Source: an uncultured Clostridia bacterium
Lineage (GTDB): Bacteria; Bacillota; Clostridia; Christensenellales; Pumilibacteraceae
Assembly (NCBI GenBank): GCA_947089425.1
Contig: CAMUKG010000004.1
Coordinates: 62,001-126,000, forward strand
Reading direction: 5' to 3'
DNA: 64,000 nucleotides
The notes below the pieces were generated by a model. That model saw only the letters and a list, made by a program, of their open reading frames with translations. It was not told where the DNA came from and ran no database searches. Within the stretch, counting starts at the first letter, position 1. Each line of letters starts with the position of its first letter. This document shows positions 27,270 through 30,485 of this stretch, one piece after another. The position numbers and the translations under genes were made by a program.

Positions 27270-27425
27270 GCGTTTTTATTATTTTTATTATATGCTTTAT
27301 TATGTGCGATTATTAAAAAATTTGCGTGCGACAGAGCGCGAAGAGTTCGGCGAAAACGTTGATATATATTCGATTTTGCGGCACAATTATAGGGCTGAAC
27401 AAAAAATATAAAAACGGAGAGAATT

Positions 27426-28364
27426 ATGAAATATACTCAATGGCTGAACGAATGGCTCGAATTATATGTGAAACCTCTTGAAAAAAATCGCACATACGAA
27501 AAGTATAAGGCGCAAATAAGACTGCACATTAAGCCCGAACTCGGCGAATACGAACTCGATTCGCTGTCGGCGCAGGTTCTGCAAAAGTTTACCGCAAAAC
27601 TCGGCGAGCGATATTCCCAGAGTACGGTTTGCGGCATACTGTCGGTGGTGAGAGCGTCGCTCAAAAGAGCGATTAAATCCGAACTTGCCGAAAAGGAATA
27701 CACCGATTGCGTCGTACGCCCGAAAATGCGTGAAAAGAAAATAGACTGTTTCACTTTAACGGAACAGCGAAAAATAGAAAACTACATACAGAAAAGCAAA
27801 GACAAAAAAATGTTCGGCATACTGTTTTGCCTATACACGGGCTTGAGAATAGGGGAATTGCTCTCGCTTAAATGGGAAGATTTCGACTTGAAAAGGGGTA
27901 CTTTTACAGTATCTAAAACTTGCGCCGACAGTTGGAAAAACGGTAGCTACGTTAAAATTCTCGAAATTCCCAAAACCGAAAGCTCTAACAGAATTATTCC
28001 CATTCCGAATAGGTTGTTGCCTAAAATAAGAGAATTGAAAAAGTCGTGCGCAAGAGAATATTTCGTTTACGGAAAGAGCGAATACGGTTCGCAAGTGCGC
28101 TCGTATCAAAAGACTTTCGAGCGGTTGCTCGCAAAATTAAAAATACCGCACAAGGGTTTTCACTCTTTGCGGCACACTTTTGCCACCCGCGCGCTCGAAT
28201 GCGGCATGGACGTTAAAACCTGTTCCGAAATTTTAGGACACAAAAATCCCGCAGTTACGCTTTCGCGTTACGCTCATTCTCTTGCCGAACATAAGCGAAA
28301 CATGATGAACAAACTTGGAAAAATGCTTTCGAAAAAAACACATAGAATAACATATTCTGTGTAA
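27426..28364 (+). CDS. Tyrosine recombinase (integrase family), likely DNA invertase
   Basis: A 312-residue phage-type tyrosine recombinase. Residues 1-95 are the SAM-like core-binding domain; the catalytic domain shows R141 (TGLRIGE), probable K164, H246 and R249 (HSLRHTFATR), H272 (GHKNPAV) and the nucleophile Y282 (LSRYAH). All catalytic residues are present. It has no excisionase, relaxase or cargo nearby, so it is not the integrase of an intact element. Its last codons form part of a 19-bp sequence that recurs inverted 119 bp downstream, so it most likely inverts that segment. GGAGAG ribosome site before the ATG. Confidence 0.92.
   Translation: MKYTQWLNEWLELYVKPLEKNRTYEKYKAQIRLHIKPELGEYELDSLSAQVLQKFTAKLGERYSQSTVCGILSVVRASLKRAIKSELAEKEYTDCVVRPKMREKKIDCFTLTEQRKIENYIQKSKDKKMFGILFCLYTGLRIGELLSLKWEDFDLKRGTFTVSKTCADSWKNGSYVKILEIPKTESSNRIIPIPNRLLPKIRELKKSCAREYFVYGKSEYGSQVRSYQKTFERLLAKLKIPHKGFHSLRHTFATRALECGMDVKTCSEILGHKNPAVTLSRYAHSLAEHKRNMMNKLGKMLSKKTHRITYSV
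28327..28362 (+). repeat. Left inverted repeat (recombination site) of the invertible segment
   Basis: Core AGAATAACATATTCTGTGT at 28344-28362, with a matching outer block TTTCGAAAAA at 28327-28336. Its inner part AGAATA-ACA-TATTCT is itself a palindrome, the usual form of a tyrosine recombinase core site. It encodes the recombinase C-terminus up to the T of the TAA stop. Confidence 0.85.
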
Positions 28365-28481
28365 CTAAAAAACTTTCAAAGTGTTCGCAAAATGTTATAT
28401 ATGTGTAAATTATTATTTGCGAGCCGTCGTTTTGCTTGCGTTTTAGGTTAAAATCGTATATAATAATAGTTGTGAAAAAGC
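28363..28481. other. 119-bp candidate invertible promoter segment
   Basis: AT-rich segment lying exactly between the two 19-bp inverted repeats. It contains the promoter at 28436-28464 facing the lipoprotein gene. Read on the minus strand it has no stop codon in the frame that would follow the recombinase gene after inversion. Confidence 0.75.
28436..28464 (+). promoter_or_regulatory. Promoter inside the invertible segment, facing the lipoprotein gene
   Basis: TTGCGT (28436-28441), 17-bp spacer, TATAAT (28459-28464). In the orientation seen here it would drive the LRR lipoprotein (ON state). Confidence 0.65.
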
Positions 28482-28516
28482 ACACAGAATATGTTATTCT
28501 GCGTACTTTTTCGAAA
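28482..28516 (-). repeat. Right inverted repeat (recombination site) of the invertible segment
   Basis: ACACAGAATATGTTATTCT at 28482-28500 is the exact reverse complement of the left core (19 of 19). The outer block TTTTTCGAAA at 28507-28516 is the reverse complement of the left outer block, offset by 1 bp. Confidence 0.85.
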
Positions 28517-28542
28517 TGAAAAAAATTGTTTCGGAGGAGAAC

Positions 28543-29535
28543 ATGAAAAAGAAATTTTCGATTATTGTTTGCACGATTTTGTGCGCGGTTTTCTCGGCGC
28601 TTTGCCTATCGGGTTGCGGTTTTTTCGACGACGGCAAAACGGATTTGGGAACTACTTCAGAGGGGTATAAATACACGTACATTAACGGCGGAATCGGCGT
28701 AGACGAGGGGGGAATCGGCTATATGTTGGTGGAAGACGGAGGCAAAAAAGAGTTTAAAATTGCTTATCCGACTTTCCATGACACAACTTTGCCTCTTAAA
28801 CATATTCTTACCGAAATAGACGGGCTACCCGTAACTTGCGTCGAGTCGCTTGGCGGAATGCACTATGTAAAGGAAATAGTAATTCCCGAAGGAATAACGA
28901 AAATAAACGGCGGGGCTTTTATGTATAACGAAGCGCTTGAAAGTATTTCTTTGCCTGATAGCCTTATCACGCTCGGTAGCGCATTCCCTTATTGTAAATC
29001 TCTCAAAAGCCTAACTATTCCGAAAAACGTGACGTGGCTCGGCAACTCAATTTGTAACGGATTGAAAGCTCTGCAAAGCGTGTCATTTCCGGGCGGCATA
29101 AAAAAAGTTCCGCAACAGTCGTGCCAAGATTGCGTTTCGCTTACGAGCGTCACGCTCGGCGAGGGCATAGAAACAATAGGCGAAAGGGCGTTTTGTTTTT
29201 GCACCCATCTTGAAAGCATAACTTTGCCCGACAGTCTTAACGTGATAGAAAAAGAAGCTTTCAAATATTGTTTTAAACTGAAATCGATTACGTTCCCCGA
29301 AAAGGTGCAAGAAGTGGGCGAGTTGGCATTCCATGATTGCGGGGCTCTCGAAAGTATAACGATAAATAACAAGACTATGAAAATGGGCAAAAACGTTTTT
29401 CTCGAATGTCCGAACATAAAGATTATAACTTTTAACGGCACGCAGGCGGAGTGGCAAGCTTTCGAAGAAGCGAACAGCGGCACCACGCGTAGCGTAACAA
29501 TTCGTTGCACCGACGGCGACATAGTTAAAAAGTAA
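28543..29535 (+). CDS. BspA-like leucine-rich-repeat lipoprotein
   Basis: A 330-residue surface lipoprotein. The signal peptide MKKKFSIIVCTILCAVFSAL is followed by the lipobox LSGC. From about residue 90 there are at least eight LRR_5 (BspA/Treponema-type) repeats of about 23 residues (CTHLESITLPDSLNVIEKEA, CFKLKSITFPEKVQEVGELA, and so on). BspA-like proteins often bind host proteins or other bacteria. The GGAGGAG at 28533-28539 fits the ATG at 28543; an upstream in-frame ATG at 28516 has no ribosome site. Its promoter lies in the invertible segment, so it is probably phase variable. A bidirectional terminator follows. Confidence 0.92.
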   Translation: MKKKFSIIVCTILCAVFSALCLSGCGFFDDGKTDLGTTSEGYKYTYINGGIGVDEGGIGYMLVEDGGKKEFKIAYPTFHDTTLPLKHILTEIDGLPVTCVESLGGMHYVKEIVIPEGITKINGGAFMYNEALESISLPDSLITLGSAFPYCKSLKSLTIPKNVTWLGNSICNGLKALQSVSFPGGIKKVPQQSCQDCVSLTSVTLGEGIETIGERAFCFCTHLESITLPDSLNVIEKEAFKYCFKLKSITFPEKVQEVGELAFHDCGALESITINNKTMKMGKNVFLECPNIKIITFNGTQAEWQAFEEANSGTTRSVTIRCTDGDIVKK

Positions 29536-29554
29536 GCGCCTAAAATTGCAATAA

Positions 29555-29590
29555 AAAAGAGTTCGCATACAAACTGTGCGAACTCTTTTT
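29555..29590. terminator. Bidirectional terminator between the lipoprotein gene and dnaI
   Basis: Thirteen-bp stem AAAAGAGTTCGCA/TGCGAACTCTTTT (29555-29567, 29577-29589) with A-tract on one side and T-tract on the other. Confidence 0.85.
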
Positions 29591-29594
29591 GCGT

Positions 29595-30485
29595 TTAAAA
29601 AGCTTTTCTTATGTCATTTGCTTTTAGGTATGTGGCGAACGAAAGCGACTTGTCGAACAGACGGCTGTATATTCGCTCACCGTAGCGCGACAGCAATCTT
29701 TCGGGCGTAAGGTTGGTGGTTATGAGAGTGAGTTTGCCCGAAGTGTTTCGCTCGTTGATTACTTGATAAAGATATTCCAAAGTTACGTTTTTCAGTATGC
29801 TTTCGGTGCCCAAGTCGTCTATTATAAGGGCGGAGCAGTGTAACAAAGGTTCGAGAGCTTCCGCTTTGCCGCCGTCGAAACAGGTGTGATATTTCAGGAA
29901 CCTATCGTTCGCCGCAAACGCCGTAAGCGCCATAACGCTAAGCCCACGTTCGAGCAGTCTTTTTGCCGCGCAACCCGCAAGATAAGTTTTGCCGTTGCCC
30001 GTGCCGCCGCCGAGAACAAGGCAACGCTTTTTGTTATTAGGATACGTAGAGCAAATGGTTTCCACTTGCGAAAACAACTTGCGGTAATTTTCTTTTTCGT
30101 CGCCGTAAACCGAAAAATCGACTTCTTCGAACGAATGAAGCGGTATGCCGAGTTCACCGCTATTCGAGCGCACGGCGAGAGCTACGGCGCAATCGCAAAA
30201 TTTTCCGTTCGTTCGCCCCGTGTCGCCGCATATAGGGCAACGGGGCTCGGGGGGAATAAGTCCGAGTTTTTTTCGAATAGCCTCGTTTTTTTCGAGCGTC
30301 TTTTTCAGCTTTTCACCGTTTGTTTTTTCGCCTTTCGCTTCCGAGAGCAAAAGCGCACGCTTTTCGCGTTCGCTCTCCGCAAATTCGGCGTTCGACGCGA
30401 GTAGGTCGAGTTCGGCTTGCTCGTATTCGCGCTTGCGTCTTATATAGTTTGCCGCTATTGCTCGCACGGCTTCGGAATAATTCAT
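29595..30485 (-). CDS. dnaI: Helicase loader ATPase (DnaC/DnaI type)
   Basis: A 296-residue AAA+ helicase loader that places the DnaB ring on DNA at the origin. The N-terminal 75 residues form a charged helical region; a zinc-binding set CPICGDTG and FCDC lies at about 83-98, as in DnaI. Walker A is GGGTGNGKTY near residue 160 and Walker B is LIIDDLGTE near 218; an arginine-rich C-terminal part (RYGERIYSRL) follows. It is downstream of and co-directional with the DnaD-domain gene. Both are needed for primosome assembly, and dnaB is encoded at 43.4 kb. Confidence 0.93.
   Translation of the reverse strand: MNYSEAVRAIAANYIRRKREYEQAELDLLASNAEFAESEREKRALLLSEAKGEKTNGEKLKKTLEKNEAIRKKLGLIPPEPRCPICGDTGRTNGKFCDCAVALAVRSNSGELGIPLHSFEEVDFSVYGDEKENYRKLFSQVETICSTYPNNKKRCLVLGGGTGNGKTYLAGCAAKRLLERGLSVMALTAFAANDRFLKYHTCFDGGKAEALEPLLHCSALIIDDLGTESILKNVTLEYLYQVINERNTSGKLTLITTNLTPERLLSRYGERIYSRLFDKSLSFATYLKANDIRKAF

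Follow-up and report, generated by a model that had tools for sequence, protein, structure and literature searches.

In Escherichia coli, the fim switch (FimB/FimE) has a tyrosine recombinase gene beside an invertible promoter, which in the OFF orientation faces the neighbouring recombinase gene; fimS is about 314 bp long and requires accessory proteins. Other invertons are known to switch surface and DNA-modification traits. The RecV switches of Clostridioides difficile (cwpV, flg, cmr and others) have invertible elements of 154-230 bp (PMC5903667, PMC9286219). In Bacteroides fragilis, Mpi, as cited in PMC5903667, is a serine recombinase acting on many promoter switches with one shared site sequence. 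For inverton group 139 and invertase group 35 of the hCom2 defined gut community, the main text of PMC11892184, a study with 1837 invertons, reports observed flipping and an occurrence mostly in Clostridia. No description of invertons or phase variation in Pumilibacteraceae and related families was found in the open-access literature.

We analysed a 64-kb stretch of DNA (hereafter the window) from the 1.94-Mb genome of a gut bacterium of the genus Pumilibacter. By every testable feature of its sequence, a locus in this window is a tyrosine-recombinase promoter inverton, a known kind of element. We read it, with a probability of about 0.9, as a self-contained ON/OFF phase-variation module in which the recombinase would flip the promoter segment of an LRR lipoprotein gene. 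Across the order, about 80 non-redundant cassettes share this design. Beyond the known kind, the analysis adds this order-wide family, a natural ON/OFF pair formed with a named species, and a helical quantisation of cassette length.

With fim, the locus shares a recombinase-adjacent invertible promoter that would point at the recombinase gene when OFF, but the present family apparently relies on a single enzyme and on short near-palindromic sites. Group 139 with invertase group 35 appears to be the closest published set, compared here by design description only. In the main text of PMC11892184, its invertons are also short and nearly always lie beside a tyrosine-type recombinase, which is generally not driven by the inverton promoter; however, the inner gaps of the two printed examples, about 205-228 bp, exceed those of most Pumilibacter-type cassettes, and that main text gives no helical rule. 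The RecV elements of C. difficile can be regarded as analogous, with a tyrosine recombinase, ON/OFF control of surface genes and regulators, and several sites per enzyme (PMC5903667, PMC9286219). Their inverted repeats are mostly unrelated to one another (PMC5903667), whereas the present family combines near-constant arms with variable spacers. The Mpi system resembles one relative (genome G084) that carries 36 matches to one site, but Mpi is a serine recombinase and the present enzyme is of the tyrosine type.

The preliminary description of this DNA had claimed a complete tyrosine recombinase gene ending in the left of two perfect 19-bp inverted repeats with 119 bp between them, a TTGCGT-N17-TATAAT promoter within this segment directed at a BspA-like LRR lipoprotein gene, and an ON orientation. 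These claims are borne out by the following features, the promoter with the caveat given on its line and the ON orientation as the presumed one:

27426-28364, + strand: tyrosine recombinase gene, 312 aa, presumed invertase; its final codons lie within the left site.
28327-28336, + strand: outer left decamer TTTCGAAAAA; its register is off by 1 nt and it is not conserved in the wider family.
28338-28364, + strand: left recombination site, ACACATAGAA-TAACATA-TTCTGTGTAA (arm-spacer-arm).
28363-28481, + strand: invertible segment, 119 bp, presumed to be in the ON orientation in the window.
28436-28464, + strand: promoter-like TTGCGT-N17-TATAAT facing the lipoprotein gene; perfect -10, weak -35 (3/6).
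28471-28545, + strand: predicted leader of the ON transcript; site hairpin and a 14-bp stem over the ribosome-binding site, fold z = -4.6.
28480-28506, - strand: right recombination site, inverted, GTACGCAGAA-TAACATA-TTCTGTGTGC on the - strand.
28507-28516, + strand: outer right decamer TTTTTCGAAA; it doubles as the 5' half of the predicted leader hairpin.
28543-29535, + strand: LRR_5 (BspA-type) lipoprotein gene, 330 aa from the likely start; Pfam PF13306 LRR_5, 2.2e-44; lipobox LSGC.

The recombinase open reading frame is intact and carries the Pfam domains Phage_integrase (1.2e-25) and Phage_int_SAM_3 (2.2e-11). The catalytic set R141, K183, H246, R249, H272 and Y282 is complete and is conserved in 102-103 of 103 relatives. 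A serine invertase of the Mpi type was ruled out, the enzyme being of the Phage_integrase/tyrosine type. Other recombinases of the same genome share at most about 33% identity with it. Its stop codon TAA begins at the final base of the left 19-bp core. In the window this stop straddles the edge of the site, and inversion of the segment would open the frame to 414 codons; this extension is probably incidental, because the stop of the Pumilibacter muris recombinase lies inside the site.

The 19-bp cores at 28344-28362 and 28482-28500 form a perfect inverted repeat and belong to 30-nt inverted arms (28333-28362 and 28482-28511) with an 87% match. Each repeat is a near-palindromic 27-bp site with two 10-bp arms around a 7-bp spacer, a layout which, judged from the letters, is that of a tyrosine-recombinase core site. 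A degenerate form of this site matched twice in the window and never in 100 shuffles, so the repeats are not a product of chance. The segment end AACTAAAAA adjoins the recombinase flank in the ON orientation and would adjoin the lipoprotein flank in the OFF orientation. The outer 10-bp arms, also held to match in the preliminary description, are indeed exact reverse complements (TTTCGAAAAA and TTTTTCGAAA) but are shifted by one base relative to the core; the outer repeat of P. muris has one A more and is in register.

Within the segment, TTGCGT (28436-28441) and TATAAT (28459-28464) are separated by a 17-nt spacer. A generic promoter scan of the window placed this pair below threshold and did not include it among its calls, since the -35 matches just three of six bases. 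The element is therefore best termed promoter-like, on the basis of its perfect -10, its conservation and its fixed position. Across the family, the best promoter match lies almost always at one end of the cassette, and the distance from the start of the -10 to the centre of the exit site has a median of 32 bp (interquartile range 31-33 bp, about 80 cassettes). In the window, the -10 lies toward the lipoprotein gene and starts 34 bp from the middle of the right (exit) site, so that ON is a sound reading of the orientation, with expression of the lipoprotein gene predicted. The recombinase and lipoprotein genes run in the same direction. No convincing terminator was detected within the window segment and no clear one between the two genes, and read-through could thus leave some expression in the OFF state. 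In a relative (genome G034; loci L044, L046 and L047), segments carry a strong bidirectional T-run hairpin upstream of the promoter, which is likely an insulator against read-through.

The LRR open reading frame spans 28516-29535, and the start at 28543 is likelier than the opening at 28516 because its ATG is immediately preceded by GGAGGAG. The product has LRR_5 repeats and a lipoprotein signal. The 14-bp stem of the leader buries the GGAGGAG motif, and the same stem is present in P. muris and in a paralogue on contig C10 of the same genome. Sequestration of the Shine-Dalgarno sequence as a family-wide trait was rejected, as at least four of its five bases were paired in just 16 of 62 leaders.

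From this arrangement a mechanism can be proposed. The recombinase would bind the arms of the two inverted 27-bp sites, which would synapse across a short DNA loop, and strand exchange within the identical 7-bp spacers would flip the 119-bp segment. In the ON orientation, as in the window, the segment promoter would read rightward into the LRR lipoprotein gene. In the OFF orientation it would read leftward into the recombinase gene from its 3' end; the lipoprotein gene would then lack this promoter, and an RNA antisense to the recombinase might be produced. This antisense could be the main point of the system, as a feedback on the recombinase that stabilises the OFF state, with the lipoprotein secondary: the 3' end of the recombinase gene abuts a site in cassettes located in cis, and the promoter is directed toward the recombinase in 30 of 43 clear cases. 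We consider this unlikely, as numerous cassettes have no recombinase anywhere near, and their promoter still points toward a surface gene when ON.

Lipoprotein control by promoter inversion, the reading we favour, may extend to a second locus. A search of the whole genome with the 19-mer, allowing up to three mismatches, returned four matches, which form two inverted pairs: that of the window and one on contig C10. The C10 sites have the same 7-bp spacer, and between them lies a homologous segment whose TTGCGT-N17-TATAAT is also identical and is aimed at a paralogous lipoprotein gene whose signal sequence is near-identical to that of the window lipoprotein, and the two segments have the same orientation relative to their lipoprotein genes. 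No recombinase gene was found beside the C10 cassette, which makes it plausible that one recombinase serves two switches; the window enzyme probably also flips the C10 cassette in trans.

The preliminary description had proposed a comparison of orientation in related genomes. In P. muris CLA-AA-M08 (NZ_CALPCN010000005.1; relative G002), the syntenic locus has the same flanks and the segment lies in the opposite orientation. The two segments are identical at 116 of 116 bases, the sole difference being three extra nucleotides in the window beside the -10; the recombinase genes are identical at 910 of 910 nt and the lipoprotein genes at 1018 of 1020 nt. An all-against-all comparison of cassettes and their flanks, between genomes or between copies, revealed both orientations in at least seven homologous locus groups. 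These are the window and P. muris, three G034 copies, G034 and G083, two G084 families, L165 and L207, and L184, L226 and L241; some consist of near-identical copies within one genome. Inversion of the segment is thus directly supported by sequence comparison. As the modules are nearly identical, the flip that separates the window from P. muris would be no older than a handful of point changes. The two species share the module as a whole (window 27301-29600) at about 100% identity and the genes on either side at 78-95%, which indicates that it was recently exchanged or homogenised at the same locus.

The distances between site centres are strongly periodic. They cluster near 127, 138, 149, 159, 170, 181, 191, 201 and 211 bp, and the best period in the range of 6-20 bp is 10.5 bp (R = 0.779, Rayleigh p about 8e-22). 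Of 80 cassettes, 75 deviate from the shared phase by no more than 2.6 bp, and jittering the distances 20000 times never gave an equally periodic set. The cassettes are partly related by descent; the 32 distinct lengths alone give a p of about 3e-6, and one cassette per distinct spacer in the recombinase-linked set gives a p of about 1e-9. Since, by DNA mechanics, synapsis across a small loop requires the two sites to face the same side of the helix, we infer from the periodicity a selection for helical phasing, with sites synapsing across a loop of less than about 200 bp. It is probable that invertons of this recombinase subfamily follow a site distance of about 127.5 + n x 10.5 bp (n = 0 to about 8), that out-of-phase copies are slowed or locked, and that length is a selected determinant of rate. 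No description of helical phasing of inverton length was found in the open-access literature, and the rule may be new. It amounts to a biophysical prediction, in which a change of a few bases in length should alter the switching rate. The distance of 142 bp in the window is one of the five exceptions, 3.8 bp beyond the phase; P. muris (139) and the C10 copy (138) conform to it. This offset suggests that the window cassette may invert less often than the phased copies.

A stronger version would hold that inversion belongs to the past, that the switch is now effectively static in the window strain and that the difference from P. muris came with the exchanged module. The recent exchange is in keeping with this, as are the 3 bp by which the window cassette is longer and out of helical phase. 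However, the recombinase and sites are intact, and both orientations occur in independent homologous groups, some of them within one genome, so we give a static switch a slightly lower chance still than the feedback role.

Of the 396 genomes in the order, 89 carry the recombinase subfamily (E <= 1e-60), which is linked to site pairs of this kind. Among 105 recombinases, counted as distinct copies with downstream sequence, a strict site pair was found at the 3' end in 52 and not in the other 53, and control stretches inside the gene gave 0/105. A search for GTACATAGAA-N7-TTCTATGTAC with 3 mismatches returned matches in 12 of 74 genomes of the family and the reversed control pattern in one; G084 has 36 matches and G034 has 14. 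The two sites of a pair have the same spacer in inverted sense, while cassettes of a single genome often have different spacers. Such arm-spacer sites form a natural set with distinct spacers, ready for specificity tests. Another 53 recombinases, more remotely related and for the most part not from the order, yielded a single site pair, which came from a member of the order. Recombinases from the class and phylum share at most 44% identity outside the order, with no linked site pairs among those tested.

Two further explanations are very improbable. The recombinase could belong to a mobile element as its integrase, with the repeats as attachment sites, given its Phage_integrase fold and the recent exchange of the module between species; but the two sites of a pair lie in inverted orientation at a distance of 124-243 bp, an arrangement that implies inversion and not excision, the module occupies the same locus in both species, the segments carry a promoter and no cargo genes, and searches of phage and plasmid collections returned only homologues below 60% identity, hence no sign of a mobile carrier. 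Two exact 18-mer matches in viral contigs were taken as chance; the one examined lies in a region of phage structural genes with no recombinase or cassette. That the repeats are mere regulatory or terminator hairpins, and the orientation difference an assembly artefact, is equally hard to credit: the repeats do fold as RNA hairpins and many contigs in relatives end at such sites, but plain hairpins would not account for arms that are fixed, spacers that match within a pair and are specific to a cassette, the link with one recombinase subfamily or the phasing of distances along the helix, and mixed orientations would themselves cause contig breaks at the sites.

Across the family of promoter switches, about 20 cassettes are ON and 53 OFF by automatic target call after removal of six duplicates; single calls, for example L098, L111, L144, L161 and L224, are unreliable and were not used individually. 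The driven genes include those for lipoproteins with LRR and Listeria-Bacteroides repeats, pilin-like proteins with an N-methylation motif, a NusG-like antiterminator, a LytTR response regulator, DNA methyltransferases and a ResIII helicase. This set of predicted targets fits the surface and DNA-modification switching of other invertons. As one recombinase subfamily appears to switch lipoproteins, pilin-like proteins, antiterminators, regulators and methyltransferases, bistability may be common among the traits of these gut commensals. Genome comparison here documents putative phase variation in Pumilibacteraceae and related families, and a named strain of P. muris is available for testing.

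At L226, L184, L241, L233 and L242, promoter switches of the family lie upstream of DNA methyltransferase-like genes, and phase-variable modification or defence is predicted for them. Contig ends are frequent at recombination sites (e.g., G084:C1:16, G034:C27:20, G034:C51:54 and G083:C44:41), as would happen where an assembly encountered both orientations or repeated sites. In G084 (L095-L107, L116 and L144-L148), nearly all of the 36 matches have one spacer, TAAGTTA/TAACTTA, which is a palindrome except for one base; these cassettes could recombine with one another besides flipping.
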